Source: a virus. Taken from it: 31,664 bases of DNA. This document shows, in pieces, positions 8,866-29,185 of the stretch. The notes under the pieces were generated by a model. That model saw only the letters and a program-made list of their open reading frames with translations. It had not been told where the DNA came from and did no database searches. Position 1 is the stretch's first letter; every line of letters begins with the position of its first letter. Location of the stretch: the IMG/VR virus record IMGVR_UViG_3300022602_000288, positions 1 to 31,664 of that record. One strand, written 5' to 3'. Made by a program: the position numbers and the translations under genes.

Positions 8866-9261
8866 GTGACTGAGAAGATATCGGCTGAAGAGCTAGCAAA
8901 AGTTTATATTAAGATACGTGATGCAAAGGAAGCAGCGGCTGAAAGACATAAGCAAGAGATAGCCGTATTCAACGAACAACTCGATGCTATATCTGCAGAG
9001 TTGTTAGAAATCTGTAAAGAGTTAGATGCTAGTAGCATACGCACTGGCGCAGGGACAGTTATTCGTAAGGTGACTACTCGCTTTGATACGAATGATTGGG
9101 GTTCGATGTTTCAGTTCATTAAAGAGAACGACGCATACGGGCTATTACAGCAACGACTGCATCAGAATAACATGAAGCAGTTCTTAGAAGAGAATCCAGA
9201 TTTGCACCCCCCGGGGCTGTGGTCGGATAGTCAATACACAATCGTAGTACGTAGGAGCTAA
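8866..9261 (+). CDS. Conserved phage protein with N-terminal coiled coil (Gam-like candidate)
   Basis: A 131-residue protein starts at GTG 8866, set by AGGAG at 8855-8859 (6-base spacing); an ATG at 8861 is out of frame and stops at once. Residues about 5-55 form a long charged coiled coil (KIRDAKEAAAERHKQEIAVF and onward). The C-terminal half has a conserved-looking core: RTGAGTVIRKVTTRF, DWGSMFQFIKENDAY, LLQQRLHQNNMKQFLEENP, then PGL...YTIVVRRS. The coiled coil followed by a small beta domain resembles Mu Gam or Gp157-type host-nuclease-inhibitor families, but the match is loose. It is first in the transcript from the 8808 promoter. Confidence 0.7.
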   Translation: MTEKISAEELAKVYIKIRDAKEAAAERHKQEIAVFNEQLDAISAELLEICKELDASSIRTGAGTVIRKVTTRFDTNDWGSMFQFIKENDAYGLLQQRLHQNNMKQFLEENPDLHPPGLWSDSQYTIVVRRS

Positions 9262-10663: not shown

Positions 10664-13477
10664 ATGGTTAAGATTGACCTTTTGGATACAGTACTCCCCG
10701 AAGAAGGGTGGTACGCTGTGGTTGGAATAAAGGGTACAGTTACCAAGCAGAAGTTTGTTCAAACTCGGGAAGAAGTAGATGCAATAGCCAAGGAATTCGT
10801 AGATAACAATAACAACGTATTTTTTGGATGTGCAAAATACGCTACAAACAAGTCACGCACTAAGGATAATGTTTTAGCACTTAAGAGCGTTTGGTTAGAT
10901 ATTGATTGTGGAGAGGGTAAACCCTACATCGATCAAGCCACCGGACTGGTTGCATTAAGGGAGTTTATCGATCTTGTTGGACTCCCTGCACCTATTATAG
11001 TTAGCTCAGGTCGTGGGCTACATGTCTACTGGACGTTCACCGAAGATGTAACAAGACAACAATGGGAGCCTCTCGCTACCCGTTTGAAGGAACTCTGCAG
11101 TACCCACAAATTTATGATTGACCATGCGGTGATGGAAGCATCTCGCATATTACGCATACCCGGCACATATAACTTTAAGCAAGACCCGCCGTTGCCGGTT
11201 GAGATCATGGAGGTAGGTGCGCCTGTAGAATTCGAGACATTCAAGTCTCTTATTGGGGTAAGGGAACTATCACCAATTTTTGGCACGATCGATCCAAAAT
11301 TTGAACCGAATGAAGTCACACTTGCTGCTATGGGTAACACCGTACAGCGTTTCAAAAACATAATGATCCGTGGGGAGAACGGATGCCAACAACTTAACTA
11401 CGCTTTTATAAACCAAGAAGAAACCCCCGAGCCTTTGTGGTGGTCATCACTTACCGTTGCCAATCAGTGCATCGATAGGGAAAAGGCTATCCACATGATG
11501 TCTAACAAGCATCCAGACTACGACCCTATTGCTACCGAACGTAAGGCTAACCAAGGTGGTGATAACGCAGGGCCGCATAAGTGTGAGACGTTTGAGAAGC
11601 ATAATCCCGGTGGTTGTGATGGCTGTAAGTGGAAAGGGAAAATCCCCGGACCGATTGCACTTAGTAAGGAAGTGGTAGAAGCAGAAGAACCCGAAGAACA
11701 ATCAGGCGAACATGAGTTTACCGACGAACCAACAATAGTTATACCTAAGTATCCGCCCCCATATAAACGAGGGGCTGGCGGTGGAATTTATTTACCCCCG
11801 GGCAAAGATGAAGCCGAACCTATTTGCGTATACGAGCATGACTTGTATGTAGTGAAACTTATGGAAGACCCTGCTGATGGTTTATCAGCTTTGGTTAGAT
11901 TGCATTTACCTATGGATGGGGTTAAGGAGTTTGTAGTCCCCAATTCAATAATCACAGTTAAAGATGAACTACGCAAAGTGCTAGCTAAAAATGGTGTAGC
12001 AGGTTCTACGTCACAGATGGCGCACTTAGCAACGTACATGAATATATTTGTTAAGACACTTCAGTATAGGCATAAGGCAGAAATTATGAGAACTCAATTT
12101 GGATGGGCAGAAAACGATACCAAGTTTATTCTTGGTGATAGGGAAATTAGTAAGGACGGTATATTTGGTAGCCCTCCGTCTTCAGTTACTAAAGCTCTAG
12201 CTCACTATTTGCAGCCAGCAGGTACGCTAGAGAAATGGAAAGAAGTATTTAATATGTATGCTAAGCCCGGGCTTGAAGGTAATGCTTTCGCTGCGCTGAC
12301 TGCCTTTGGCGCACCACTATTTAAACTTACTGGGTTGAAAGGCGCAATCATTAACGTGATGTTCAAGCAAGGTGGTTCAGGTAAATCTACCGCATTGTTT
12401 ATGTGTAATAGCGTATATGGCGCACCAGAAGCACTATGTTCTATTTGGAAGGATACCAACAACGCCAAGATGCAACGCTTGGGCCTACTAAATAACCTAC
12501 CCTATACCGTAGATGAGATCACTAACATCTCTGCCGAGGACTTCTCTGACTTGGCTTATGGTATGTCGCAAGGTCGTGGTAAAGATCGTATGAAAGGCGC
12601 AACCAATGAGCTGCGTGACAACTCTACAACTTGGCAAACCATATCCTTGGCAAGCTCGAACGCTAGCTTCTATGAGAAATTAAGTAGTGCTAAGGCAGGG
12701 GCTAACGCTGAGATGCTTAGATTGTTTGAGTATGAGATTGCCCCGACTGATATTATTTCCGTGGAAGAAGGTAAGCGCATGTTCGACCACCAGCTACGTG
12801 AAAACTATGGGCATGCAGGGGAGATATATTTGCAGTGGTTAGTTAACAATAAGGACGAGGCTAAGCGGATTTTTGATAAGGCCCAGTCTATGATTGACCA
12901 AGCACTAAGACTTACTGCCCCTGAGCGTTTCTGGTCTGGTTTGGTTGCATGTAACATAGCCGGTGGCGTTATTGCTAAACGCTTAAATCTGCATGACTAC
13001 AATATGAACGCCATATTTAACTGGGCTGCTGAAACGGTTAAAGGCATGCGCCATGAGATTAGACCACCCCTTGACGACGCACCTAGCGTTTTGGGCGACT
13101 ATATCAACCGCCACATGCAAAACATCTTGGTAGTGAAAGCCGATAACGACAACCGCACCTCAACTGCATCGTTACCTAGCCTTGAACCTAAGGGGCAGTT
13201 ACTTATCCGATACGAGCCTGATACTAAGCAGCTTTATGTTGTTACCCGAGATTTCCGTTCGGATTGTGTAGAGAGGCAGATCAACTACAAGAATACTTTG
13301 GAAGAGCTTAGGAAGCGTGGATTCTTTAAGGAGACCATGAACAAGCGTATGTCCAAGGGTATGAAGATTGTTTCACCTGCGGTTAACACATTAGTATTCG
13401 ACTGCTCCAATCCGGGGTTCTTGGATATGGACGGCTTGATTGCTCCGCAGATACAAAATGAAGATCGAGCAGGTTGA
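10664..13477 (+). CDS. AEP primase fused to DUF927-type helicase
   Basis: I prefer ATG 10664 (937 residues); the in-frame ATG 10619 would place the hairpin inside the coding region. Residues about 1-200 are an archaeo-eukaryotic primase: WLDIDCG (D79, D81), SSGRGLHVYW (H120), and ASRILRIPGTYNFK as the third motif. A zinc cluster follows: C307, H313, C318, C321 (KCETFEKHNPGGCDGC). After a Pro/Glu-rich linker comes the helicase: Walker A KQGGSGKST (G570-T576), Walker B YTVDEIT (D617, E618) and a sensor LASSNASF. The helicase matches the DUF927 family. The protein probably makes primers and unwinds the fork for the PolA at 2760. It is the main replisome component of this phage. Confidence 0.9.
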   Translation: MVKIDLLDTVLPEEGWYAVVGIKGTVTKQKFVQTREEVDAIAKEFVDNNNNVFFGCAKYATNKSRTKDNVLALKSVWLDIDCGEGKPYIDQATGLVALREFIDLVGLPAPIIVSSGRGLHVYWTFTEDVTRQQWEPLATRLKELCSTHKFMIDHAVMEASRILRIPGTYNFKQDPPLPVEIMEVGAPVEFETFKSLIGVRELSPIFGTIDPKFEPNEVTLAAMGNTVQRFKNIMIRGENGCQQLNYAFINQEETPEPLWWSSLTVANQCIDREKAIHMMSNKHPDYDPIATERKANQGGDNAGPHKCETFEKHNPGGCDGCKWKGKIPGPIALSKEVVEAEEPEEQSGEHEFTDEPTIVIPKYPPPYKRGAGGGIYLPPGKDEAEPICVYEHDLYVVKLMEDPADGLSALVRLHLPMDGVKEFVVPNSIITVKDELRKVLAKNGVAGSTSQMAHLATYMNIFVKTLQYRHKAEIMRTQFGWAENDTKFILGDREISKDGIFGSPPSSVTKALAHYLQPAGTLEKWKEVFNMYAKPGLEGNAFAALTAFGAPLFKLTGLKGAIINVMFKQGGSGKSTALFMCNSVYGAPEALCSIWKDTNNAKMQRLGLLNNLPYTVDEITNISAEDFSDLAYGMSQGRGKDRMKGATNELRDNSTTWQTISLASSNASFYEKLSSAKAGANAEMLRLFEYEIAPTDIISVEEGKRMFDHQLRENYGHAGEIYLQWLVNNKDEAKRIFDKAQSMIDQALRLTAPERFWSGLVACNIAGGVIAKRLNLHDYNMNAIFNWAAETVKGMRHEIRPPLDDAPSVLGDYINRHMQNILVVKADNDNRTSTASLPSLEPKGQLLIRYEPDTKQLYVVTRDFRSDCVERQINYKNTLEELRKRGFFKETMNKRMSKGMKIVSPAVNTLVFDCSNPGFLDMDGLIAPQIQNEDRAG

Positions 13478-13652
13478 CTACAACATTAACTGGCGTAACT
13501 TTAAAGCGGGGTATTCCTTTTTTATACCCTGCATTGCCTGCACAGAGGCTAAAAAGACGTTAAGAGAAGTTGCTAGAAAGGCTAAGATGAACATAGTTAT
13601 GAAGACCGTGATTGAAGATGGCGTCAGGGGTGTGCGTGTCTGGCGAGTTTAA
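13458..13652 (+). CDS. Small basic protein at the end of the early operon
   Basis: ATG 13458 gives 64 residues; a TTG at 13440 is possible but less likely. The start lies 20 bases inside the primase 3' end. The opening DYNINWRNFKAGYSFFIPC and the closing KTVIEDGVRGVRVWRV match a recurrent phage layout, in which a short N-terminal 'NINWR.F..G.SFF.P' leads to a helix (TEAKKTLREVARKAKM) and a final strand 'IEDGxRGxRVWR'. That alpha-beta arrangement and its basic charge would suit nucleic-acid binding. Function unknown. It is the last rightward gene before the terminator. Confidence 0.68.
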   Translation: MKIEQVDYNINWRNFKAGYSFFIPCIACTEAKKTLREVARKAKMNIVMKTVIEDGVRGVRVWRV

Positions 13653-13687
13653 GGTATACTAATTCTGCTTTTCCTTGTGTGTTCTTT

Positions 13688-13713
13688 CCCCCGCCAAGTG
13701 CGGGGGTCTTTTT
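13688..13713 (+). terminator. Rho-independent terminator of the rightward operon
   Basis: CCCCCGC (13688-13694) and GCGGGGG (13700-13706) form a 7-bp GC-rich stem with loop CAAGT, followed by TCTTTTTA. It follows the last + strand gene by 35 bases. The T-tract overlaps the stop codon of the convergent giant gene (13712-13714). No comparable T-tract exists in the opposite orientation, so it mainly stops rightward transcription. Confidence 0.9.
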
Positions 13714-16700
13714 ATTTGGGGATTGCTCTTTGAAGTATCCTAATCAGTGGAGCCATCTTTGCTACTTCACCCATGTTAATGCGATGTCCTTCATACGTCA
13801 CGTAATTACCACCCATTAACGCTTGTATTTTTTTAGAAATTACATCTGGGCCTATAACATGTGAGCTAGCAAAATATCTTTTGTCGTGCTGCCGCAATAA
13901 ATTGATAGCTTTTTGTAAGTCATCGGAAGAACCCTGTTGGATAGCAGCATCGATCTTTTTGTTTACTGTATCTGCAGAAACTTTTGCTTTATGTTCTTCA
14001 GAGGATATATTACGCTCCACTTCTTTTCTAGCCGCCAACTTAGTTGGTTGAAACCCTATAGCTTGTGATGCAATATTTGCAGTGGTAAATTCACTGGGTT
14101 TAATTATCGTACTGGTTCTATTCTTTTCCCCTTCGGTGGCTAGGCGCAACGCAGTTACAAAGTTTTTAATAAGCGGGGGAGTTATATTACTTAACCCTTT
14201 TAGCGTATCCCCATCAGATATTTGCTGAACCCCATCAAGGAATGAAGCGCCTTTTTGTCCTGCAGGCATGGCGTTAGCTTTTAGGAAATTCCAAGTGGTA
14301 TCCTTAAGAGTATCTCCAGATTCAAAGCTACGAATCAATAAACCATTCAATCCAGTATGTGAACCGATGTTCATGCCGGTGGCTTCGGAAATAAGACCTT
14401 TTTGCAATGAACGGGTTATGAAGTTATTACCACCTAAATGGTCAGGCAACCACTCATGTTCAAACCACTGCTTAGAGCTTTCCGATCTGTACCAGTCTTT
14501 CATACGGCGCTTAGTACGTGCCCGTTTATCTTCCTCTGTTGGCGACCAATCCCAATACTTATCTAGCAGGTCAGTAAGCAAGTCATACATGGGCAAGCCT
14601 TCTACACCCGAGAACATAGCAGTCATCAACAAGATACCACCTAGCGTCTTAGCTGCAACAATCTTTTCTTCCCTTGTACTACCCTTCCAGTTAATCATTG
14701 CAAACGCATTGCGGGTAAGCAGTGACATCATTGCAAGTGGGTATTGCTTAAACTGCCCGATTACTTTAGCCCCGGGGCTTTTAAATATTCTTGCACGGCT
14801 AAAAGATTCGTTTGAGCTTAGATACTGGCGGGTTTGTTCTATTGCACTTTGAACGGCTTGATCCATGTTTCCAGATTTGGCAAATTCTAGATCAAATGCA
14901 GACATTAGGGTGATTTCCCGGCTGACTTGTTCAGAAGCATTGAACGCTGCAGACATTACGTTAGCAGCAAACCTAAACCCCTTACGTAATTTGCTGTTAT
15001 ACGTTTCGGAAGATACCTTACCCCGTTGTGTAATAGCACGAGTGAACGTATCTGTAATCGCCCCACGCTCTTTGAACTGCCTGAAAGCCTCTTTACGTAC
15101 AGGATCATTTTGGATAACTGAAGAGTTTTCTAATGTCGGGGTGGTAAATTTAAAATCCCCTTTAGCTGTAGAAGATACAGCACCAACCAAAGACTTCTTA
15201 GTCACCAGTGCCGTGTACTTACTTAGTTCCTTAGCAGCTTTAACTTCCCCATACCTACCGCCCAATGCGGGTAAAACTATTGTAGGTATAGACAACGACT
15301 GCGTAATCGCAGAGCTAATCCCGGTCATCGTAAAATAATAACCAAACGAGCCGATCTTATTAGCTACTTTACCTGCCCATGTTTCTTGTGGTGGGTTCAA
15401 CTCCTCCAATGCACGAGCTTCAATTTCATTAACGAACATACCCAGCTTCCCTTGCATAGGGTCGCCCTTTAATGAGTCTCTTGCACGATCAATACTGGAG
15501 TGAATTTCATCCCCATACCCAAGCTTTGCAATATCGTTAGCAATACGAGTTGAGTAAACCGAGAAGTTACGCAGTACGTCCTCACTAAACCCGGGCACAT
15601 TATCTGCATGTATAAATTGCCTACGGATACTTGCTTCCGGTCCGGTGGTTAGCCAGAATTGGTAGATGTCATCTTTAAGTTCTTTTAGCTTAGCCTCAGA
15701 CACGCCTACCTTACCTTCTTTAGTCTTAGCACCCTGAAGTACACCATCAATAGAGCTGAATACACCCTTCAATAAGTTGCTTGAGGTCTGAATATCTTTC
15801 TCGACTCGATTGCTGTCGTTATCTTCTTTAGCCGCATAAGACTGGAATAACTCTTCACGAGATACACCCAACTCTTTTAGCTTAGCCTTAACGTACTTAG
15901 CACGTTCTTTTTCAGAATCAAACGCCTTAACTATACGACCCTGTTTGGGGTCTTTCATCTCAAACCAATAATCCCCATGCCGCATAAACGGGAAATATTC
16001 TTCGGGTAGGGAGCGTTCAAACTCTTTCTTAATGTCGGAAATAAGTTTTTGTCTATCTTCAGCAGGTATATCTAGCGCTCTGATCTTCTTATCTAGCAAG
16101 TGCCGACGCATCGAGAACATTGTCTTGTAAAACTCTCGCATAGACTTATAGATTTGCTGCGCCCCGGGTATTTGACCAAGTGCATCCCAATGAGTGTATA
16201 CCTCACGTATAGCTTTTTCTCTGTCAGCAAGAGCCTTCATAGCCGTTGCTTTCACTGCATCGCTTGTATTAGGGGCGGCTAAGCGCTCGTTTATCTTAAC
16301 CATCTGCTTATCGTTTTTCAACGCATCATTTATATCGGTATGTGCAGCGGGGCTGAAGTTATTGAGACGAGCCTGTGACGTAGCCATGTGCAGTTTTTGC
16401 ATCAAGGTCTTATGTTTGCTAGCTAGGTCGCTTAACTTTTCTGCAACTTTGTTAGCAGAGTTGAGAATGTTTTGTCTTAACCCGTTCATTTTCTCTACTG
16501 ATACGTTAGCAGCTTGAAGGCCACCAGCAATACCGGGGTCACGCTTACGTATCCAGTGCATTATGTCTGGGGTTGAAAGGCTAAATAAAATCTTACCCAA
16601 AAGACCAGACGGTATGCGATCTAGGTTTTTATCCATTTGTTCTAAGGCGGTGGGCACATCACGCTCACCTTTCATTTCCTCAGAAGCCTTAAATACATTA

Positions 16701-19700
16701 GCAGGGTCGCTAGTATCCGTTAGGGTCTTTTCTGCTTTCGCCAGAGTCTCTTCAGACATTTGGGGTTTGTATTGCATCAACCCCTCGGTAACGAGCATCA
16801 AGTCTTGGAAAGCGTTAACACTCCCTTCAGGCATACCAAATGCGTTAGCCAGCGCACGGACAAATTTAGTAAACAGATTCTTAAAGAACCCCGGCGCACC
16901 CTCTTTAGCTTTACCTTTAGTGTTAGCCAAAAACTCTTGCACATCATATTCAGTCATGCCGTAAGCAACAAACTCTTTGAGGTCGTCTAGGATACCAACA
17001 CCGCCTTTTTCACTGGCAGTGAACAAACGATCTAGCGCAGCGGGGACTTCCTCCCCCATCATTTTGGCTTCTGTATAAGCTGTCGCTGCTTCGTTACGGA
17101 TATCTTTAAGTTCGTCTATTAACCTCTGTAGTTTTGGCGGTACAGGACGGCCTTCTTTAGTTAGCCTTTCGTATTCCGCAATCTGCTCAATGGTTGCACC
17201 ATGCACGGCCTCATGCAGGAATGTTTTAAATGTAAGCCCACCGCCTCCTTCAAACTTATCCCCACGCAGTATTAAATACTTTTTACCATCTTCAGTCGTG
17301 AAGTAAATACCGTTGGCGTCTTTAAACTTGTCTTTTAAACTTTGTCCGCCACGCAGGAAGATATCAGGTAAATCTGCTTCTGATTGGGCAACTATATAAT
17401 TAACGTCTTTAAGGAAAGGTTTAAGTCGTCCACCCAAGACCTTTTCAAATTCCGAACCAGTTTTTACTATATGATCTATAGCAGCCGTTGCGGTTTTAAA
17501 CTTTGCAAGCACTGCACCTCTAGCTAGCTCTATAAGTTTAGAAGCTATAGACAAACGATCAGTAGGTGCATTCTCTCTGGTGCTTAGCCCTTCGGTTGTT
17601 TTGTTTGTTGTAGTAGGTTTACTTGTTTTAGAGAATTGAGTGCGCTCTTGTTTAGCACCCTTAAGTGCAGCAACATTAATAATGTTCTTGTCATTGAATA
17701 CGACAGAATTTTGCGTAGGTATCTTACCGCTTAATTGTTTTTTAAGTTGGGTTATATTTCGATTTTCAGATTTTACATAGATGTCAAACTTTTCTTGTTG
17801 GCTTGTCCAGTAATTTATATTTTCTTCTTTACGTTTATTAAAGGTTGCTAAATACTCAGGATTTTTTAATTGATATGCTTCAGGTTGCTTAGCCCTCCAC
17901 TGGTCTATCATTTTTTGAGCATCGTCACGCATTTTCTCATACTCTTTAACCTTTTTCAGAATTTTATTGATTTGTGTTTGAACTCGTACATCTTTACGAG
18001 AGGGTTGGTCAAAGAACTTAATACCTTTAACACCAAGATGGTCTAAATATAAAGAAACGGCTTCATCATACTTCCTTACCCTTAATGCTTCTTCAAAGTC
18101 AGGATTACCAAAGTTAGGAATATAATCATCTCTCGCAGCTATTTGCAATGCTTTATAGAAGTCTTTACCGGTAGGTGTATCAATACCTCTATCCGTGAAA
18201 TAATCAGGTAAAAAGTTACCTAATTCAAATTGAATTTGTTCAACGACCTTTTTAACTCTTCCGATTTGCCGAGCTAAAGGTTTGTCCCAATTTAACCATT
18301 CATCGTGGGCAATAGCAACATCAATCCGCTTAAGTTGTCCTTCTGGCCTAGAAATATTTGCTTTTATTCCAGCCTCTTCCATTGCATCTAAAGCAGCTTC
18401 TATATTCATTGCAGGAATAGTGTCGAAATTTTGCATTGCTTCCTTACGGGCTTGACTGTAGTCCCCCTTGCTATCAAGAAGTAAATTCTTAGCTTGGATG
18501 AAGTTCCAATTCCCGTATTTAGTTATTAACGCATCAACATCAACATTCCCCAAATCTAAATCTGTTGGTGTAGCTTTTCTAGATACATCTTGCTCCCAAT
18601 AATTATGCCCAATACCCTTACGCTGAGCTAAGTAAGAACCCCATCCAAATGCTTGAGCGCCTTCACCGAAATTCATAAAGGCATGGTTAAAATTTCTAAA
18701 CTGGGCCGCAGTGCCGTGCCATGAACCGCCCATCTCCAAGCGAGCAGCGCCATAAGCTAGATCGATAATATCTTGTACGGTTAACTTATTAGGAGCAAGA
18801 CCTAGCTTTCTTACCGCAATACGGAACATCTGGAAAATCTGGCGTATAAAGTTGCCAAACTCACTTTTTGATTTTAATGCAGTTGGTATTACTCCAGCGT
18901 TATTTGCGATCTCCACAAAATGCCCGATACGTTCAGTTATTTGCTGATTAAGTGGAGTATTGATGTTTGTAACTAAGTCTATTGCTTCTTGGGCGAACTT
19001 ACTTTCTTGTGACCCATCATTTTTCTGTGCCCACGTTTGTATACGATCACCAAGCTTGTTAAGAAGCACAGATGGTAATAGCCCCTGTATCCCTATATGC
19101 ACACCAACTTCGTGTAGGAATACTGCACGACCCGTACCTTTTTGAATATTATCCGCAATCAGATAAGCACGTTTATTTTGTACAAACCCTTTATCCGTAG
19201 AATCCCCGCCGTCTTTTTCCGCTTTTTCCCTAACTTTTTCCGGTAATTCATCCCATGACTGTACAACTGTTAGCTTGATGGGGTTTTCTACAACACCAAT
19301 AAATTCACTTAACTCGTCATCTAACTCAATAGCGTCGTAAGGATCAGTAACTTCCTCCGTAGCAGCAGAGCGTTCCGTTTTATTTTTTGCGTTATCCTCA
19401 TCAATTTTAAGTTGTTTCTTTTCTTCGGCTATTTCTGCTAGTATTTCTGGCTCATCAGCAAAAATTTCTTCGTCGGTTCTTGCCCGTTTAGCTTCAAGTA
19501 AGTCAGCAACTTTCTGTGCTTTATGGGCTTCTTTAGCCTCACGAGTAGATACAACTGGGCCTTCTTTAGCTTCCTGCACGGGCTGCGCTGCTAACTCTTT
19601 AGCTTTAGCTTTGCCTTCTTTTATCTTTGTTTTTCTTTCGGCAGCTTTTTGTCTTTCTTCAGGCGTCATCGCTGCTTCTCTAGCAGCTTTAGCTTGTTCT

Positions 19701-22126
19701 CTAGCTAGTTTATTAGCTGCTTTTTGGGCTTTCTTAGCCTCGGAAGCGGCCTTACGTTGTTCTTTAGCAGCGGCTTTTTCAGCTTTAAGTTTTTCAGCAG
19801 CTTCTCTTTTAGCGGCTTGATCTAGTTTACGTTGCTCGGCTTTAACAGCTTTATCGGCTTTTGCTTTTGCTTCTATTTCTTTAGCGGATACAAAATCTTT
19901 TCTAAAGGTGTCTGCAGCGGTTGGTCTTCCCGTTCTTCTGTTTGCCGCTAGCTGGTTTGCAGCTACTACACGTTCTTCTTCCGAAACTGTTGGGTGTGCT
20001 AATGCTTCTTTGGCTTTGTTAGCAACACTCGACTGCCTACTTGCAGCTAATTGATGCAATGCTTCCAGTGCATTGACACGTTGTTCGTCCGTAGCTACGT
20101 CTGTTTCTAGGGTGTTGATATGGGCGTTTATTTGCCCTAAGTCTCGTTGACGTAGCAAGTCTTGTTCAGATTTAATTTTCTTATCTAGAGCAATTTGCTC
20201 AGGGGTCTTTTCTACCTTTTTGCGACCGGGCGTACCTTTTGGAGCAGCAGCTTGCTCCGCTTCTAGGCGTAACTCTTCTTCAGTTTTAACTTTTCTAGGA
20301 CGTCCACGGCCTTTGGTCTCTGCAGGGGCTTCGGCTTCAACGGTTGCAGGTGCAGTCTCTTTAAGTACTTCAGTCGTAGGCACAGTGGGTACTTCAATAC
20401 CAGCTTCTTTTGCTTTGGTGGTAGCTCGTTGCAATGCTTGCCGTGCCCTAGTACGCCGACTGATTGCAATCTTTTGCGCTTCTGGATTCTTGGGTGCATT
20501 AACGACTTGCTCTTCCGCAGCTTGTAATTCGGCTTGAGCTTCCTGAACCTTAGCTTGTATCGGGTTTACAGGAGTAATTTCCACTGGTGCAGCGGCTGCG
20601 GGGGCTGCAGTTTCTACAGTTTGTACAGGTGCATTGGGTATGGGGGCTGGTTTATTTTGTGTAGCGGCTATTCTAGCTTGTGCATCAGCTAGAGCTTTAT
20701 CCCCCGTAGTGCCTAATGTACTCGGCTGAAGTCCTTTTCCTTCATCAACTCGTCCAACAGGTCCGCTAACGCTAGCCAATCGTTCAGCACCAAGTGCCTC
20801 AGTTCCTCCGGTGGTGGTTCCTCCATTGCTAGGCAGTGGAACGCCTTGCTCACTTGATCTGGTGTCAACTCTAGCAGGTGGTCTGACATTTAGTTCCCCT
20901 CGTTCAAATTCATCGTTAGCAACCGCAGCAGCTAAATCACGGGGTAAATTATGTTCGTCCTGAAGTTCTTTTGCCCGGGCAGCTATCGCAGTTTTTGCGT
21001 CCTCAGGTAATACTATATCAGCATTTATTGGGGCTTTGGCTTCAACTTGCTCTTGTTTTTCTGCCGTATCTAGAGGCATTGTAGGTAGTGGTGTACCCGC
21101 AGCAGAAGTAACTTGCGGTCCGGGCGGTTGTTGATTTTTTAAGGCTAACTGACTTCTAGCGTTTCTTGCTTCTACAACCCCAGCACCTGCACCCATAGCT
21201 GCACCGGAAGTAAACCCTTGGTATAAAGAATCCCCGTACCCTGCTATGGCCTCATCCGAAAATAAGTCCTCGTCCGCTTGCCATCTAGATAAAATATCTT
21301 GCGCAGGGTTAACAAAAGCTTCTTCTATTGCACCTCTTCCTGCACCCTTACCGGCAGTTGCTAATACTGACTTAGCTGAGGTTACTAATTCTTTTTCCGC
21401 CGCTAATTTAGCAGCTTCTGTAGTAGGTACTTTACCCAGCAAATTAACTAGGAGTTTTTTACCTAGCATGAAACCTGTACCGGCTTCCTCCAATAGAGTC
21501 TGTCCTGTAGCTGCAACTGCGGCTTTAAACGTGTTTACATGTACCGGCTCGCCATTTTTTATTGACTCTTGTGCTTGCTCCACTAAGTTTTGCGTATACA
21601 TTTGTGGGTATGTAGCTAAAAAACCCCCAAGTGCTCCACCAACAAGAGTTCCAACACCGGGAACTAAAGAACCAACTGCCGCACCCGCTGCAGCGCCAGC
21701 TATGGTATTTAAAGACTGTGGAGCGCTACCTGCAATAAACCCGGGTACTTGAGTGGCTACCTCACCAGCGGCGGATAAAGCACCTTTTTCTTTATAGGCT
21801 TTAACTACTTCCGGTAAGCTGCTAACATGCCCTTGTTCTCTACTTATAGCTTCAGATTCTTCCGCCGCTTTAATAGCCGCTTTGTCTGCATCTAGTAAAC
21901 TCGAAGCCGCACCTTTATACCCAACCCCAAGACTTTTAACACCTGCAGCTAGCTGGTCTAGTATCCCAGCTTCTTTTTCTTTTTCCTCAAGGGCTTCTTG
22001 TTTGGGTTCTTCCTGCGTAGCGTACTGGGGCAGTATATCTTTTGTTATAGCATTAGTTATGTCTTCATGGGACATATCATCTGGAAAATTAACTACCCCA
22101 ACATTAGGTATGTTTACTGTGGGCAT
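13712..22126 (-). CDS. Giant polyvalent virion protein with ADP-ribosyltransferase-like and zincin-like domains
   Basis: A 2804-residue protein starts at ATG 22126 after AGGTAGGAT. Residues 1-30 (VNIPNVGVVNFPDDMS) are the N-terminal motif of phage internal/ejected proteins. A Gly/Ala-rich hydrophobic segment lies near 140-175. An AT-hook, GRGRPRK, is at 606-612. Residues about 740-850 are a Lys/Ala/Glu coiled coil. A metallopeptidase-like FLHEVGVHIG (H1005, E1006, H1010) is followed by an ART-PolyVal-like domain from WHGT (1136) through GEGAQAFGWGSYLA, GVKGIKFFD and SVVFNDKNI. A true HExxH, FLHEAVHG, is at H1638-H1642. The C-terminal ~800 residues resemble the LPD38 region of large polyvalent proteins (YFPFMRHGDYW), with hydrophobic stretches near 2260 and 2495. 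It is probably packaged, injected and active against host defences or proteins; that role is inferred from the family. Confidence 0.88.
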   Translation of the reverse strand: MPTVNIPNVGVVNFPDDMSHEDITNAITKDILPQYATQEEPKQEALEEKEKEAGILDQLAAGVKSLGVGYKGAASSLLDADKAAIKAAEESEAISREQGHVSSLPEVVKAYKEKGALSAAGEVATQVPGFIAGSAPQSLNTIAGAAAGAAVGSLVPGVGTLVGGALGGFLATYPQMYTQNLVEQAQESIKNGEPVHVNTFKAAVAATGQTLLEEAGTGFMLGKKLLVNLLGKVPTTEAAKLAAEKELVTSAKSVLATAGKGAGRGAIEEAFVNPAQDILSRWQADEDLFSDEAIAGYGDSLYQGFTSGAAMGAGAGVVEARNARSQLALKNQQPPGPQVTSAAGTPLPTMPLDTAEKQEQVEAKAPINADIVLPEDAKTAIAARAKELQDEHNLPRDLAAAVANDEFERGELNVRPPARVDTRSSEQGVPLPSNGGTTTGGTEALGAERLASVSGPVGRVDEGKGLQPSTLGTTGDKALADAQARIAATQNKPAPIPNAPVQTVETAAPAAAAPVEITPVNPIQAKVQEAQAELQAAEEQVVNAPKNPEAQKIAISRRTRARQALQRATTKAKEAGIEVPTVPTTEVLKETAPATVEAEAPAETKGRGRPRKVKTEEELRLEAEQAAAPKGTPGRKKVEKTPEQIALDKKIKSEQDLLRQRDLGQINAHINTLETDVATDEQRVNALEALHQLAASRQSSVANKAKEALAHPTVSEEERVVAANQLAANRRTGRPTAADTFRKDFVSAKEIEAKAKADKAVKAEQRKLDQAAKREAAEKLKAEKAAAKEQRKAASEAKKAQKAANKLAREQAKAAREAAMTPEERQKAAERKTKIKEGKAKAKELAAQPVQEAKEGPVVSTREAKEAHKAQKVADLLEAKRARTDEEIFADEPEILAEIAEEKKQLKIDEDNAKNKTERSAATEEVTDPYDAIELDDELSEFIGVVENPIKLTVVQSWDELPEKVREKAEKDGGDSTDKGFVQNKRAYLIADNIQKGTGRAVFLHEVGVHIGIQGLLPSVLLNKLGDRIQTWAQKNDGSQESKFAQEAIDLVTNINTPLNQQITERIGHFVEIANNAGVIPTALKSKSEFGNFIRQIFQMFRIAVRKLGLAPNKLTVQDIIDLAYGAARLEMGGSWHGTAAQFRNFNHAFMNFGEGAQAFGWGSYLAQRKGIGHNYWEQDVSRKATPTDLDLGNVDVDALITKYGNWNFIQAKNLLLDSKGDYSQARKEAMQNFDTIPAMNIEAALDAMEEAGIKANISRPEGQLKRIDVAIAHDEWLNWDKPLARQIGRVKKVVEQIQFELGNFLPDYFTDRGIDTPTGKDFYKALQIAARDDYIPNFGNPDFEEALRVRKYDEAVSLYLDHLGVKGIKFFDQPSRKDVRVQTQINKILKKVKEYEKMRDDAQKMIDQWRAKQPEAYQLKNPEYLATFNKRKEENINYWTSQQEKFDIYVKSENRNITQLKKQLSGKIPTQNSVVFNDKNIINVAALKGAKQERTQFSKTSKPTTTNKTTEGLSTRENAPTDRLSIASKLIELARGAVLAKFKTATAAIDHIVKTGSEFEKVLGGRLKPFLKDVNYIVAQSEADLPDIFLRGGQSLKDKFKDANGIYFTTEDGKKYLILRGDKFEGGGGLTFKTFLHEAVHGATIEQIAEYERLTKEGRPVPPKLQRLIDELKDIRNEAATAYTEAKMMGEEVPAALDRLFTASEKGGVGILDDLKEFVAYGMTEYDVQEFLANTKGKAKEGAPGFFKNLFTKFVRALANAFGMPEGSVNAFQDLMLVTEGLMQYKPQMSEETLAKAEKTLTDTSDPANVFKASEEMKGERDVPTALEQMDKNLDRIPSGLLGKILFSLSTPDIMHWIRKRDPGIAGGLQAANVSVEKMNGLRQNILNSANKVAEKLSDLASKHKTLMQKLHMATSQARLNNFSPAAHTDINDALKNDKQMVKINERLAAPNTSDAVKATAMKALADREKAIREVYTHWDALGQIPGAQQIYKSMREFYKTMFSMRRHLLDKKIRALDIPAEDRQKLISDIKKEFERSLPEEYFPFMRHGDYWFEMKDPKQGRIVKAFDSEKERAKYVKAKLKELGVSREELFQSYAAKEDNDSNRVEKDIQTSSNLLKGVFSSIDGVLQGAKTKEGKVGVSEAKLKELKDDIYQFWLTTGPEASIRRQFIHADNVPGFSEDVLRNFSVYSTRIANDIAKLGYGDEIHSSIDRARDSLKGDPMQGKLGMFVNEIEARALEELNPPQETWAGKVANKIGSFGYYFTMTGISSAITQSLSIPTIVLPALGGRYGEVKAAKELSKYTALVTKKSLVGAVSSTAKGDFKFTTPTLENSSVIQNDPVRKEAFRQFKERGAITDTFTRAITQRGKVSSETYNSKLRKGFRFAANVMSAAFNASEQVSREITLMSAFDLEFAKSGNMDQAVQSAIEQTRQYLSSNESFSRARIFKSPGAKVIGQFKQYPLAMMSLLTRNAFAMINWKGSTREEKIVAAKTLGGILLMTAMFSGVEGLPMYDLLTDLLDKYWDWSPTEEDKRARTKRRMKDWYRSESSKQWFEHEWLPDHLGGNNFITRSLQKGLISEATGMNIGSHTGLNGLLIRSFESGDTLKDTTWNFLKANAMPAGQKGASFLDGVQQISDGDTLKGLSNITPPLIKNFVTALRLATEGEKNRTSTIIKPSEFTTANIASQAIGFQPTKLAARKEVERNISSEEHKAKVSADTVNKKIDAAIQQGSSDDLQKAINLLRQHDKRYFASSHVIGPDVISKKIQALMGGNYVTYEGHRINMGEVAKMAPLIRILQRAIPK

Positions 22127-22143: not shown

Positions 22144-24564
22144 TTATTGATTTACAGGAACTAACTTTCCATTCACAAAATTAAATTGCCCTGTTTTTTG
22201 GTCTTGTCCACTGCTTATTTCCTTCTTCCTAGCAGATATTTTATCCAAGATACTCTTTTGGTCTTGTTCGTTATCAGTACCCATCAACTGCATAGTAAGC
22301 TTTTGTATTTTTGGGTCTTTGCTAGCTTCCAAAGAAAATTCCTTCTGCTGTGATACGCCCACATTCGGGTGTGTCTGTAAGTTTGCTGCAGTGGATGCCG
22401 TTTGTTTTTGTTCCCATGTAGCTTTTTCAGGATTACCATTAGTCAGTACGCCCAGCGCATTGTTATACGCAATGTGGAAAGGATCGTCCTGTTTATTTTG
22501 CAGTGCGAGTGCTTTTGCATTTTCCGCCCTGATGTTTTCCATTCCCTCTGCATGCGTATAACCTGCTTGGGCACGAGCATTAGCTGCACCTATTTCCATC
22601 TTAGCAACTTGAATCCTAGAATCAATCTCATTCTTAGATATGCCTTCTTTACTGGCTCTATCAAGGAGACCTTGGTAATCTTTACTTGCTTCTTCGAGGA
22701 GTTTAGCATTGTCAGTATATCTAGTACGCTCAACATCAAAACGAGCTTTAGCCATAGCCATCTCTTCTTTCCGTTGCTCTTGAGCGTCTTGCATAGCACC
22801 TTGCACTGCAGCTTCAGAACCCTTACCAATATTAACTGCTCCGTAAGGGGAAGTACCACCTAAGATACCTAATCCGGCCTGTAAAAAGCGCATAGCGGAT
22901 TGTTTTTCTTTGTCCCCAGCGCCTTCTGCTTGGCGTCTTTCTAAATATTCTAATAACCCTTTACCTGAAGTATCTTCCCCAAGGATAGCTCTTTTCTGCG
23001 CCATAATCGAAGCTAAATCAGTATTTGTACTTGTCGGGGATATTTTAGGTTCTTCCTTTTTAACTTGAGGGGCATCACCACCAGAGATATAAGAATCATC
23101 TAACTCGGTTTCACCGCCCGCACCAAATGCAACGATACCACCACCAGCCAAGAACTGAGTGTTACCTGCGGGCGCTGCTGCTACTCCGGGGTTGCGCATG
23201 TTTTCACGAAAGTCAATCTGGCTTTGTGCAGCTTCTGCGGTCTGTGGGTCATTAGCTTTTGGGTTAGCCTTTTGTACTAACTGCTGGTCGCTAAGCCGTC
23301 CAAGCATTGCATCTAGTTTACCTTCAGGGACACCACTGGATATACCGCCTGTGGCCATCGCCTTGACCTTACCACCCTTAGCCATCTTAGATATACCATA
23401 AGCACCTAGACCTAAACCTGTAGCAGTTGATGCAAGACTTGGCGCTGCTTGATATTGCTGGGTAGTGGTAGATTGCATCGGCAGACCACGTAGCATGCTA
23501 TTCATAAACGAAAGCTGTTGTTGTGGGTACTGCTGAGCCATAGCGTAGTTTTGTACGGCTTGATTGATAATGTTTTGTTGCTGTTGTTGCTGCAAACCGC
23601 CTGCCTGTAACTGCGCTTGGTCAATGCCCATCTGCTGATTGTACTGACTGTTACCTAACGTGTTGAGCGTATTAGCACCTTGTAGCCCGAGGTTATACGC
23701 ATTCTGAGCGCCCTGTACCCCTTGCAGACCTAACCCAGCACCTTGCATACCGAGAGCAGCCGCTTGTTGCATGTTTTGCTGAGCGGTGTTATACGCTTGG
23801 TTGTATCCTTGTGAGATCAACTGGTTGGTAGCTAAGTCTTGGTTCTGTTGGTTTAGCCCCTGCATAATAGCCTGACGACCACCACCAAATGCACCTTGCT
23901 GGGTAGCCTGCGCTTGGTTTGCAGCGTTTTGAATACCAAATTGCTGATTAAGTAACTGTTGTTGCGGTGCAAGAGAAGCTTGTAAATATGGGTTCATATA
24001 TGACTGAACCGCATTTGGGTTTTGAGCATTTTGTCCATAAGACATACCAGCCTGCGCACCTAACCCACCATACCCCATAGCAGGATTTGCAGTGCCCATC
24101 GCACCTTGAGAAGCTTGGTTAGCAATATCAGTACCTTGACCAATTTGCCCAGATACCTGCATGTTTTGTATGTTATTGAATGCTTGTTGCTGCAAAGGAC
24201 TAAAACCGGCAAAATAATCAGCAGCATTTGTGCTATATGGCTGATAAGGTTTTACTCCCGTTATTTCTGTAGTACCGGGTTGTGCGTTACCTTGAGCATC
24301 ATAGCCGCCGTTAGCAAGGGGATTACCATTTGCATCGTACCCACCTACACCAGTCTGATTAGTATTAAATAACTGTTGTTGCGTTGCACCAAGCATGGAC
24401 TCCACATACGGCTGGGCATATTGTGGGATATTAGTTTGGGTTACATTTGTTTGGGTTGGTTGAGAGCTTCCACCGCTACTTCCACCGCTCTGTGGTTTAA
24501 TCGTGCCTCCAGCAGACTTGCGGAAAGCCATTTCAGGTAACATAGAGAAGTGGTCGTATCTCAT
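22144..24564 (-). CDS. Gln/Gly-rich internal virion (ejection-type) protein
   Basis: An 806-residue protein starts at ATG 24564, overlapping the upstream stop (ATGA); M12 at 24531 is an alternative without a ribosome site. Residues about 130-380 are extremely Gln/Asn/Ala-rich, with short heptad-like runs (LNQQFGIQNAANQAQATQQ) suggesting long helices. A hydrophobic Gly segment (TATGLGLGAYGISKMAKGG) follows. Double-glycine motifs recur: MAKGGK, MATGGI, LAGGGIVAFGAGG. DDSYISGG also occurs in the protein at 24971. The C-terminal half (about 520-800) is a charged helical region. The layout matches podovirus internal core/ejection proteins (P22 gp16/gp20-like, T7 gp15-like in role only). It is adjacent to the giant protein in the late operon. 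Confidence 0.78.
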   Translation of the reverse strand: MRYDHFSMLPEMAFRKSAGGTIKPQSGGSSGGSSQPTQTNVTQTNIPQYAQPYVESMLGATQQQLFNTNQTGVGGYDANGNPLANGGYDAQGNAQPGTTEITGVKPYQPYSTNAADYFAGFSPLQQQAFNNIQNMQVSGQIGQGTDIANQASQGAMGTANPAMGYGGLGAQAGMSYGQNAQNPNAVQSYMNPYLQASLAPQQQLLNQQFGIQNAANQAQATQQGAFGGGRQAIMQGLNQQNQDLATNQLISQGYNQAYNTAQQNMQQAAALGMQGAGLGLQGVQGAQNAYNLGLQGANTLNTLGNSQYNQQMGIDQAQLQAGGLQQQQQQNIINQAVQNYAMAQQYPQQQLSFMNSMLRGLPMQSTTTQQYQAAPSLASTATGLGLGAYGISKMAKGGKVKAMATGGISSGVPEGKLDAMLGRLSDQQLVQKANPKANDPQTAEAAQSQIDFRENMRNPGVAAAPAGNTQFLAGGGIVAFGAGGETELDDSYISGGDAPQVKKEEPKISPTSTNTDLASIMAQKRAILGEDTSGKGLLEYLERRQAEGAGDKEKQSAMRFLQAGLGILGGTSPYGAVNIGKGSEAAVQGAMQDAQEQRKEEMAMAKARFDVERTRYTDNAKLLEEASKDYQGLLDRASKEGISKNEIDSRIQVAKMEIGAANARAQAGYTHAEGMENIRAENAKALALQNKQDDPFHIAYNNALGVLTNGNPEKATWEQKQTASTAANLQTHPNVGVSQQKEFSLEASKDPKIQKLTMQLMGTDNEQDQKSILDKISARKKEISSGQDQKTGQFNFVNGKLVPVNQ

Positions 24565-24974
24565 ATCTTAAGTTCCACGATTGTATATCGTTCAGTAAAG
24601 TTGTAACGCCGCCATAACCGTGCAACTGATTCTCTCGCTGCACCTTGTATTTTAGTAGCCCCACACCGTTTTAAAGTATCCTTTAATTGCGCAACCGTAT
24701 CTAAAGAAGATATTAATTTGCCGCCAATATAGGTAATAAATGCAACGCGGTCATTCGGCATATTACTAAAACTTACCGTAGCTGCCCCGTGAATAGTTTG
24801 TTTATCGTCAACTGCTACCAATAACATCCACTGCCCACTACTTACAAGCAGCTTAATTTGATCCAGCGTGTAGTCATCCCCACCATATTTCTGGGCTTCA
24901 GCTATATACCCCTCGACCATCGGCCAAGTTTGAGCTATATACTGAGTTCCTACCTGCTGTACATATACTTTCAT
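24561..24974 (-). CDS. GNAT-like acetyltransferase-fold protein
   Basis: A 137-residue protein starts at ATG 24974 (overlapping the upstream gene) and is coupled to the next by ATGA. The order of elements fits a GNAT fold: an N-terminal helix around YIAEAQKYGGDDYTLDQIKLLV, strands SGQWMLLVAV and IHGAATVSF, then VAFITYIGGK with the beta-bulge region, a helix (TVAQLKDTLKRCGATKI), and the closing ESVARLWRRYNFTERYTIVEL with the typical 'lyrr.GF.e' end. The acetyl-CoA-binding Q/RxxGxG/A loop is not clear, so catalysis is uncertain. Similar small GNAT-like proteins sit among the internal virion genes of T7-like phages (gp13 has been described as GNAT-like). Substrate unknown. Confidence 0.7.
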   Translation of the reverse strand: MKVYVQQVGTQYIAQTWPMVEGYIAEAQKYGGDDYTLDQIKLLVSSGQWMLLVAVDDKQTIHGAATVSFSNMPNDRVAFITYIGGKLISSLDTVAQLKDTLKRCGATKIQGAARESVARLWRRYNFTERYTIVELKI

Positions 24975-26483: not shown

Positions 26484-26762
26484 TTAGGTCTTAATTTTTA
26501 ATACGTTGCCAGCGGTAGTGTCGTAATAGATATCGCCGGTTTTTAGATTTGCCAGACTTGCTTGTGTCGGAATACCAACAATTTGTGCATTTGTCAATTG
26601 ATTTATAGTGCTTAAGTTTAACGTAGTAGCTTGAAGAGGTCCATTATTGTCAAGCTGTTCAAAATACTGCCGCAAAATTTGCAAGAACTGATCCATAAAC
26701 TTCTTGTCATAATCGACAGGAGCTACAGGTAAACGAGGTGCTATTACGTTTTGGTTAGCCAT
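26484..26762 (-). CDS. Small tail-associated protein
   Basis: A 92-residue protein starts at ATG 26762, sharing a base with the upstream stop (TAATG). The N-terminus (APRLPVAPVDYDKKFMDQFLQILRQYFEQLDNNGP) is a recurrent opening in small structural proteins between the stabilisation protein and the internal proteins of podoviruses. The C-terminus (LKTGDIYYDTTAGNVLKIK) resembles the 'GDIYYDTTxNxLKI' ends seen in phage fibre and neck proteins. It is probably a virion component; the exact location is unknown. A 10-base gap with a ribosome site separates it from the next gene. Confidence 0.78.
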   Translation of the reverse strand: MANQNVIAPRLPVAPVDYDKKFMDQFLQILRQYFEQLDNNGPLQATTLNLSTINQLTNAQIVGIPTQASLANLKTGDIYYDTTAGNVLKIKT

Positions 26763-29185
26763 TATCTTCTTCCATCTGGGCGTACATCGAGTCTAGGACT
26801 ACCTAACTGCCATTGCGTACCCACTTGATCTGAGGACACAATAAGCGCCATCTGACGACCTCTTAACCTGCAATATGCGTATTCGGTAAACTGCTGCACG
26901 TTATAAGTAGATGAGCCAGCATAGTTTTGCAAACTGGTTACTGTTGGGTTATCAGATGAGCCGTAGTTTGCACCGGGGTTTTGACGAGGGAGTACGGTAA
27001 AGTTAACGCTTGGATACGCTGAACCACCAGCCGATTGCACTGAACCATCGAAACTTACGTCGGGGATAATACGCCATACAAATCCAAACGCATGGCCATC
27101 ACCAATATCAAAGTCAGAAGATTGAATATACGCAGCGATTGCATTGGGTGGGTTTGCTGTGCCGTCATCTACTTGAGACTCGTGATAAATAAGTCCTGAA
27201 TTAACAACCCCAATATCAATAACTTCTGCACCAACTTTATGGGTAGCCGCCGTAGTACCATAAGCGCCACGAGAACAACCAGTCAATGTAGTGCTAGTAG
27301 AGCCGCTGTAAATAATCTTTTCTGAACCAATCTCTACTACCCCCGCTGCAGGGAAATTAGATTTGCTATTGACCTTAATAGTAGTATCTGTAAGACCGAC
27401 TGCTTGTGAAACTGTTGTTACCGGTGCATAACCTGCGGCCATTGGGTAAGTACGTAGTGGGCTATCTAACCAAGCTGTTCTAGTAAGGTTGCCGTAGTAC
27501 CAAATCTGCTCTAGGTGGTTATATATAACATAGCTATCAATAACGGTTGAATTAGCAGAACAGTAAAACCACCAAACTTCGTTAAACCCTTCGTTAGTAC
27601 CAGCAAAGAACTGATAAGACTGGGTTAAGTTAATGTTGTCAAACACATACTGGCGAAGCGTACACGGCAGCGTTTGCACCTGACCGGAATACATATAAAA
27701 CTTATCTTGACCCATCCAGTAGGCGACGTTGTTAACCGTAGCGGTTGCATTAGGGCTGGTTATAGATATGTTGTCTGCAAGTAGCGTAAACCCCCAAACA
27801 TACGGAGCGCCTAAATATTGCATCGAATACAAAGCCGCATCTGTCCATATTAGAATTTCTTGACGGGATTGCAGCGCTGTTACGATATATGAACCGTGGC
27901 TAAGGGTATAACTACCTGCTTGGTTTATAGCTGTTGGTGTCCATGTCGCTACACTTTCTTGATCCGACCAACGAATAAGCATCGGGTTTTGTGTAGAAGA
28001 ACCATAGTCATTTACCCCAAATGCAATCACAAATCTTGACGCATCTGAGACCATCATGTAGTTGCAAATTGTGGGGCAATTTGAGTCTGTTAACCACCAC
28101 TGCGTACCGTTCTGGGTATTAGTATTCGTCGAAGAAAGTACTTGTGCAATGTTGACGTTGTTAGGGTTATTATCTACCACCCAGTAATATATCGGGCCAC
28201 CACGAGGGTTAAATAATAAGTTTTGCCCAAAGTTGAACGTACTCCACAACCTTAACTGCTGCCCAATACCTTGAGCTGTAGGCGCTGCAATACCCCAACC
28301 AGTATAAGTTGATGCACTAATAACCTGCGTACCTGAAGTATGTGACACCGCTGCAGTGCCGTTAGTTCCCCGTGTACAACCAGTAAATGTAGTGCCGCCC
28401 ACACCGCTATAAGTAATAAGCTCGCTGTCTATCAAAATAGTACCAGCAGAGGGGAACCCAGTAGTAGATACGACGGTAATAGTAGTAGCGGAGTTAGATA
28501 GCGCACCGTTTAGTGTAGTAGTTGTAGCACCGGGAGACACACCACCCCATTCACCCACACCCCATCCTAAGCCAGTTGTATATATTGCACCGCCGCTAGT
28601 AATCTGATAAGTAGCAGTTACAGCCCCGCCTCCAGTACCCGTATCGCTTGCATTAGCTACAACACCCACTGTTATTGAATACTGCGTTGAGGAGATATAA
28701 GTTATTTGGTATCCCCAAGCCTGATTAAGCACAGAGGCAGTTACATTACCACCAAGGCTAGTAGCACCACTAAAAGTAACAAAGTCACCTGTTTGTGCGT
28801 TATGACCAGCTTGAGTTACAACAATAACCGAGGAACCATTAGTCGCTGCAAAAGATGCGGATGGTGAAGAAATTACTGCTCTTATGGGGGTAACATCATA
28901 TAAATTACCACTGACGCCCAACTGCACATAGAACTTTTGATTAGTACCAATACTTAAGTAATTGTAACCGTTAAGACCAATCCAGTTCCATAAGTCTCTA
29001 CATACTCCTACATATTGTCCGCCAGCAACTGCAACAGTTCCAGCATCTAAAGACCAGCCACCAATCTTCTCTACCTGCCCCGAACGAAAACGAATCTTGT
29101 CGCATTGAAACCAGCCGCCTTCGTTGGTAAGCGTAGTACCTTCTCTATTCACTCCCGGACGAAATTGTAGTTTCTGTAATGGCAT
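26762..29185 (-). CDS. Tail/packaged-DNA stabilisation protein (P22 gp10-like) with duplicated beta domain
   Basis: An 807-residue protein starts at ATG 29185, after GGGGTAA. The N-terminus (LQKLQFRPGVNREGT, then NEGGWFQCDKIRFRSG and EKIGGW) is the strong signature of a widespread podovirus protein annotated as P22 gp10-like packaged DNA stabilisation or tail protein. The body contains beta-propeller-like strands around SRFVIAFG, QSRQEILIWTDAALYSMQY and ATVNNVAYWMGQDKFYMYSG. Two ~70-residue insertions (about 219-290 and 588-659) are copies of one small beta domain ending in GCTRGTNGT or GCSRGAYGT. The protein probably closes the portal and attaches the tail. The late-operon position agrees. 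No protease site is recognised. Confidence 0.87.
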   Translation of the reverse strand: MPLQKLQFRPGVNREGTTLTNEGGWFQCDKIRFRSGQVEKIGGWSLDAGTVAVAGGQYVGVCRDLWNWIGLNGYNYLSIGTNQKFYVQLGVSGNLYDVTPIRAVISSPSASFAATNGSSVIVVTQAGHNAQTGDFVTFSGATSLGGNVTASVLNQAWGYQITYISSTQYSITVGVVANASDTGTGGGAVTATYQITSGGAIYTTGLGWGVGEWGGVSPGATTTTLNGALSNSATTITVVSTTGFPSAGTILIDSELITYSGVGGTTFTGCTRGTNGTAAVSHTSGTQVISASTYTGWGIAAPTAQGIGQQLRLWSTFNFGQNLLFNPRGGPIYYWVVDNNPNNVNIAQVLSSTNTNTQNGTQWWLTDSNCPTICNYMMVSDASRFVIAFGVNDYGSSTQNPMLIRWSDQESVATWTPTAINQAGSYTLSHGSYIVTALQSRQEILIWTDAALYSMQYLGAPYVWGFTLLADNISITSPNATATVNNVAYWMGQDKFYMYSGQVQTLPCTLRQYVFDNINLTQSYQFFAGTNEGFNEVWWFYCSANSTVIDSYVIYNHLEQIWYYGNLTRTAWLDSPLRTYPMAAGYAPVTTVSQAVGLTDTTIKVNSKSNFPAAGVVEIGSEKIIYSGSTSTTLTGCSRGAYGTTAATHKVGAEVIDIGVVNSGLIYHESQVDDGTANPPNAIAAYIQSSDFDIGDGHAFGFVWRIIPDVSFDGSVQSAGGSAYPSVNFTVLPRQNPGANYGSSDNPTVTSLQNYAGSSTYNVQQFTEYAYCRLRGRQMALIVSSDQVGTQWQLGSPRLDVRPDGRR
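27210..27424 (-). repeat. Domain copy 2 in the stabilisation protein
   Basis: This stretch encodes the second copy: TTIKVNSKSNFPAAGVVEI, EKIIYSG and TGCSRGAYGTTAATH. The order and spacing of landmarks match copy 1. It precedes a C-terminal beta-rich region with conserved aromatic residues. Confidence 0.75.
28318..28530 (-). repeat. Domain copy 1 in the stabilisation protein
   Basis: This stretch encodes a ~70-residue beta domain with landmarks TTITVVSTTGFPSAGTILI, ELITYSG and TGCTRGTNGTAAVSH. The domain type is common in phage and surface proteins, and the second copy lies at 27210-27424. The DNA has diverged much more than the protein pattern. Confidence 0.75.

Follow-up and report, generated by a model that had tools for sequence, protein, structure and literature searches.

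We analysed the large minus-strand gene of a 31.7-kb fragment of an uncultured phage (IMG/VR record IMGVR_UViG_3300022602_000288; 31,664 nucleotides, referred to in full as the window). A preliminary description made from the sequence alone had assigned to this gene a 2804-residue polyvalent protein combining an AT-hook, an ADP-ribosyltransferase (ART)-like domain and two zincin-like metallopeptidase motifs. The gene is indeed a single intact open reading frame (ORF), with an ATG start at 22126 that is preceded by an AGGA-type purine stretch (Table 1), and the motifs GRGRPRK (606-612), HEVGVH (1005-1010), WHGT (1136-1139) and HEAVH (1638-1642) all lie at the residues described; judging by their conservation in relatives, the four motifs are not chance occurrences. 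The ART-like and the two zincin-like domains were borne out by profile matches, residue conservation and structural models, in which the zincin motifs and the ART block were mostly confidently predicted rather than disordered (mean predicted local distance difference test score, pLDDT, 82-84). The proposed LPD38-like C-terminus, on the other hand, was not recovered, and the matches behind the proposed injected-protein N-terminus were weak. The minus strand of the fragment carries virion and lysis genes, and the plus strand carries replication genes for a family A DNA polymerase, a SNF2 helicase (a separate gene, 7438-8811) and a DUF927 primase/helicase. A whole-protein search of viral contigs returned nothing; relatives were obtained with segment queries, in scans that gave the best 80 of more matches.

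The canonical HEAVH motif, the sole HExxH in the protein, was confirmed to lie inside a zincin-like domain, zincin-2 (z2). Its HE..H residues are kept in 30 of 30 aligned z2 relatives, and E1718, located 76 residues past HEAVH within KEFVAYG, is 100% conserved among the alignable divergent relatives. The z2 profile detected chain 9sfn_G of the Protein Data Bank (PDB), a 1337-aa internal virion protein, at an E-value of 7.8e-26, and both metal-ligand motifs were aligned. The large internal protein gp37 of phage phiKMV, which follows gp36, is also 1337 aa long and has the same HEAVH; this shared length leads us to infer that 9sfn_G represents gp37, either from phiKMV itself or from a close relative. 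The z2 segment further matched the PHROG family of the N4 virion RNA polymerase (vRNAP; 8.6e-15). A model of residues 1545-2740 (mean pLDDT 83.5) places three strands before the HEAVH helix and a second helix with E1718. Among the chains passed on by Foldseek, which are the only ones that the VIA-align ranking covers, the PhiM1 phage ejectosome and N4 vRNAP ranked highest for this model, each with Z 7.2; solved zincin catalytic domains came next (Z 6.6 over 150 residues, 4.7 A), and the T7 core protein appeared lower down (Z 4.4). When cellular genomes were scanned with z2, no relative turned up.

The HEVGVH motif belongs to a second domain, zincin-1 (z1), whose profile showed no detectable relationship to that of z2 over the motifs. 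All 99 aligned rows of the z1 family retain H1005, E1006 and H1010, E1065 is 97% conserved, and 97 of 100 family rows have the HExxxH form itself. The family is large in phages, with 207 matching loci in one scan. A profile built from HExxxH members only detected JC1 gp69 (HEAFH) and a Klebsiella phage ZX1 protein (HELFH), and aligned to their canonical HExxH motifs with a one-residue gap exactly inside the motif; HExxxH is therefore a conserved insertion variant of the zincin motif, and presumably a functional one. The predicted structure, in which strands are followed by a helix bearing the motif and a second helix bearing E1065, has the layout of the HEXXXH clade of polyvalent metallopeptidases, for which a helix bend was proposed (Iyer et al., 2017; PMC5512222). 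The suggestion that HEVGVH might be a different zincin subtype or an inactive copy thus gives way to membership in a conserved clade known since that study, and a decayed HExxH is ruled out by the conservation of HExxxH across the family.

The WHGT block directly following z1 was analysed in the same way. Its match to ART-PolyVal (PF18760) at residues 1136-1199 reached 15-16 bits, below the gathering cut-off of 31.2, whereas 34 of 52 relatives match this family at E<=1e-3, and the relative L069 reaches 104 bits. The His-Gly pair within WHGT is present in 153-154 of 154 rows (H1137 in all 154) and Y1165 in 98%, and D1479 within NSVVFND corresponds to the N.V.FNDK of relatives, so that the H, Y and D characteristic of the active site fall on strands 1, 2 and 5. 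Between DQPSR and the final strand NSVVFND lies a coiled coil of about 95 aa, a layout shared by several relatives. Structural matches to ART-PolyVal-like proteins were obtained in BFVD (E 2e-10) with a model that also contained z1. Based on these alignments, the block is best described as a divergent H-Y-D-type ART that resembles ART-PolyVal, as the preliminary description had it, although by its own score it is not a member of the Pfam family. Foldseek searches of the PDB with the z1-ART and z2-C-terminal models gave nothing at E<=0.001, and VIA-align of the z1-ART model was dominated by the coiled coil, so that the absence of zincins and ARTs there carries no meaning. The same ART type was also observed in vir555 (L006), a Methanomicrobiales virus with an assigned archaeal host; there it precedes a HEIGH motif in a large protein whose gene neighbours that of an internal virion protein. 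On a plasmid of Teredinibacter purpureus (L039), an ART of this family stands alone (347 aa).

The C-terminal region was assigned to the PLxRFG/tail-700 family NF032893 (266 bits, cut-off 100), preceded by a sub-threshold LPD39-like stretch whose counterpart in the nearest relative exceeds the PF18858 cut-off with 33 bits. This assignment replaces the proposed LPD38-like C-terminus: hmmscan at E<=10 detected no LPD38 (PF18857), nor did a dedicated search, in which the controls likewise gave no match. The C-terminus also matched the DarB-like antirestriction family phrog_10089 (6e-34). At the other end, N-termini homologous to that of the window protein were found in 40 relatives carrying z1. 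The claim of an injected-protein N-terminus found weak backing in a glycine-zipper-like stretch, weak virion-protein matches and a first segment of about 35 aa that is 71% identical to one relative. This segment (VNIPNVGxVNFPDxMSxxDIxxAIxxDILPxY) is shared by L029, L210 and L212, most of the N-terminal region after it is not, and only 5 of 215 large ORFs have an FPDxMS tag; the segment is possibly a short targeting tag. The AT-hook falls short of the Pfam gathering score, but the assignment is upheld by its conserved position: of 59 non-redundant z2 relatives, 16 have GRP[RK] 211-241 aa upstream of HExxH, and elsewhere it occurs only twice in 133,097 residues, which argues that the motif is real. 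In the window protein it lies about 1030 aa ahead of the z2 HExxH, and the difference of about 780 aa corresponds to the coiled-coil, z1 and ART unit.

Table 1. Features of the ejection-type protein gene and the adjoining upstream gene
Feature	Position	Strand	Basis or remark
Whole gene, polyvalent ejection-type protein	13712..22126	-	One intact ORF, 2804 aa
PLxRFG/tail-700 domain (aa 2043-2754), helical; motif reads PFMRHG	13865..16000	-	NCBIfam NF032893, E 5.8e-79
LPD39-like region (aa 1876-2045)	15992..16501	-	PF18858, 19.9 bits vs cut-off 27
Zincin-2 (aa 1542-1788), HEAVH 1638-1642, candidate third ligand E1718 (KEFVAYG)	16763..17503	-	Conservation, profile, fold alignment
ART domain (aa 1129-1498): H1137, Y1165, D1479; coiled-coil insertion ~1380-1472	17633..18742	-	Sub-threshold PF18760, conservation, BFVD matches
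Zincin-1 (aa ~950-1128), HExxxH motif HEVGVH (1005-1010), candidate third ligand E1065	18743..19279	-	Conservation, profile, model
AT-hook motif GRGRPRK (aa 606-612)	20291..20311	-	Pfam AT_hook (PF02178), 15.9 bits, below cut-off 17.4
Segment aa 333-472	20711..21130	-	Kept in nearest relative L014, 62% aa, 73% nt
N-terminal region (aa 1-330), glycine-zipper-like stretch ~140-172	21137..22126	-	Matches below threshold to Pfam glycine-zipper and PHROG virion/tape-measure families
Upstream 806-aa gene, DNA-ejection-protein relative	22144..24564	-	phrog_4287, E 3.1e-7

The gene lies directly downstream of the 806-aa gene, in the podovirus order of a large ejection protein after a smaller one. The DNA-ejection family phrog_4287 was also matched by 9 of 12 relatives of the 806-aa protein, with a best E-value of 7e-16; no homology was found between the 806-aa gene and its positional counterparts in seven other phages. 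Two genes upstream, a 137-aa gene (24561-24974, minus strand) has a family profile that weakly matches acetyltransferases (PDB 1vkc, E 0.002), and its position would allow for an internal virion protein of GNAT-like type.

The domain composition of relatives was then compared. Proteins with z2-tail-700, z1-tail-700 and z1-ART-tail-700 arrangements were all common among the ORFs examined; z1 is directly followed by ART in 73 of them, 17 ORFs carry z1-ART-tail-700 without z2, and one relative (L069) has ART-z2-tail-700. Only the window protein unites z1, ART and z2, and 76 further z2-tail-700 ORFs, many of them overlapping the earlier set, included none with z1 or ART of the window type. The suggestion that the domain order is a new variant is thus consistent with the relatives sampled, although the rarity of the combination is not proven by scans that gave the best 80 of more matches. 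Either a gain of the ~780-aa z1-ART unit in the window or its loss in the others could account for these distributions.

The nearest relative, IMGVR_UViG_3300025450_000125 (L014/L203), encodes a 2112-aa protein without the z1-ART cassette. Its DNA is 89% identical to the window over 11753 to 13720, that is, across the adjoining DNA downstream of the gene up to the gene's end. Within the gene, close similarity is limited to residues 1539-1786, which correspond to z2 (~88% aa, 83% nt); identity drops to ~60% at residues 333-472 and ~40% in the C-terminal remainder. Such a pattern is expected from whole-domain exchange by recombination. Strong purifying selection on z2 alone is a less likely explanation, because z2 is only 30-37% identical between the window and other relatives. 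The L014 protein has a different ART-like domain upstream (L014:6840-7442; LYRG...FTSDNPYIASSYA), with a PF18760 score of 22.2 bits, below the cut-off.

Taken together, the window gene probably encodes a large podovirus-type ejection (internal virion) protein that is packaged and injected and carries an extra ~780-aa metallopeptidase-ART cassette. This reading follows from the homology of z2 to 9sfn_G and N4 vRNAP, the corresponding fold alignments, the DNA-ejection neighbour, and the near-invariant catalytic residues of z1, ART and z2. The 73 ORFs with z1 directly before ART and the 17 z1-ART-tail-700 proteins without z2 support the cassette. In addition, the giant protein JC1 gp69, which by its profile match carries a z1-type zincin, was detected in CsCl-purified virions with 51 unique peptides (PMC9144972), and N4 vRNAP, with its HExxH domain C1 and helical C2, is ejected into the host (PMC12633501). 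By analogy with these two proteins, the window protein is likely to be packaged and injected.

Several results weigh against this interpretation. The window ART stays below the Pfam cut-off, neither z1 nor ART had a PDB fold match in a search dominated by the coiled coil, and all VIA-align Z values are below 8; these modest values gain weight by agreeing with the sequence matches. The 806-aa protein has no profile match to phiKMV gp36, and podovirus morphology is deduced indirectly, as the fragment yielded no capsid, portal or terminase gene.

Short-tailed phages inject large ejection proteins into the host, and T4 Alt ADP-ribosylates host proteins. In the window protein, the z2 zincin and the long helical LPD39-like and PLxRFG/tail-700 region would form a scaffold that is packaged in the capsid and, as homology and gene order suggest, delivered with the DNA via a channel formed with the upstream ejection protein. 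The ~780-aa unit with the HExxxH metallopeptidase z1 directly followed by the H-Y-D ART lies between the AT-hook/coiled-coil linker and z2. Inside the host, the ART would most likely ADP-ribosylate host proteins, the metallopeptidases may either free domains by cutting the polyprotein or cleave host targets, and the AT-hook could hold the protein on incoming DNA. Domain homology, catalytic-residue conservation, predicted folds, gene context and the mosaic pattern are the observations from which packaging, injection, catalysis and targets are proposed. Countering host defence, the role initially suggested, is one of several possible roles, since HEAVH belongs to an ejection scaffold shared with phiKMV gp37 and N4 vRNAP.

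The role of the zincins can be read in other ways. Both may be self-processing proteases that act in the head or during entry and have no host target, leaving the ART as the sole effector; we regard this as a serious possibility, if not the favoured one. P1 DdrB is cleaved before packaging, a general autoproteolysis role has been suggested (Iyer et al., 2017; PMC5512222), and in the window protein z1 directly precedes the ART and z2 the scaffold. However, N4 vRNAP, which carries a z2-type domain, is packaged unprocessed (PMC5512222), and no sign that the purified protein is degraded is reported in the N4 study (PMC12633501). The zincins might instead cleave host proteins, such as defence proteins, after injection, as zincins serve as effectors in other conflict systems (PMC5512222) and the z2 segment looks exchanged between relatives, as for an effector under changing selection. 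This is rather unlikely, given that z2 occurs in phiKMV-type ejection proteins and, among the loci found by the z2 search, in many scaffolds with no other recognised effector, which suggests a scaffold role.

Somewhat less likely still is that z2 persists in the ejection scaffold as a structural remnant without catalytic function and that z1-ART alone is active: proteolytic activity of N4 vRNAP C1 is not reported in the accessible part of that study (PMC12633501), but invariance of both histidines and both glutamates of z2 in 30 divergent relatives would be unusual for a remnant. The phrog_10089 match could point to a DarB-like antirestriction protein; this match is limited to the C-terminal scaffold, however, and profile searches found no methylase or helicase module in the window protein, making this the least probable of the alternatives.

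Several known systems resemble the window protein in part. The polyvalent proteins of Iyer et al. (2017; PMC5512222) share with it the multidomain organization, zincins including the HEXXXH clade, the H-Y-D ART and the injected-effector logic, whereas in the window protein the ART lies between zincins of two types and the scaffold is of the tail-700 kind, an order unseen in the relatives sampled here. phiKMV gp37 and 9sfn_G share the z2 domain with HEAVH and the KE(F/L)VA glutamate; in these 1337-aa proteins neither z1 nor ART nor a PLxRFG/tail-700 match was detected. N4 vRNAP (gp50) is likewise a giant, injected protein with an HExxH C1 domain, a large helical C2 and the z2 PHROG match, but no RNA polymerase domain was found in the window protein. 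The DarB-like/PLxRFG giants (Klebsiella phage ZX1, Skulduggery, Pavtok and JC1 gp69) share the PLxRFG C-terminal scaffold (ZX1 and others) and/or a z1-type zincin. They are longer, and the annotation of several includes a methylase or helicase; the canonical HExxH is found in place of HExxxH in ZX1, Skulduggery and JC1, and JC1 gp69 had no tail-700 match here. L014/L203 has the same scaffold but a different payload beside near-identical neighbouring DNA, and thus provides a natural comparison.

Each part of the window protein is a known kind of phage weapon; the combination and the signs of swapping between close relatives are new. Two literatures, on polyvalent effectors and on podovirus ejectosomes, are hereby joined, as the same HExxH domain is present both in ejection proteins of solved structure and in giant proteins laden with effectors, so that an ejection protein could double as an enzyme delivery vehicle. 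We tentatively suggest, with slightly less than even confidence, that the large ejection protein of this phage group is a plug-in carrier in which recombination swaps z1 with ART, another ART class and even z2 as entire domains, while the AT-hook/coiled-coil/tail-700 scaffold stays fixed; if so, close sister phages would inject different enzymes.

Profile matches were also noted for two further genes of the fragment. A 131-aa protein encoded amid the replication genes (8866-9261, plus strand) matched PHROG 13900, annotated as 'minor head protein', an odd location for a head gene. An 807-aa virion structural protein (26762-29185, minus strand) contains a segment of ~60-70 aa twice (~221-283 and ~589-656), both copies matching baseplate/tail-fibre PHROGs.

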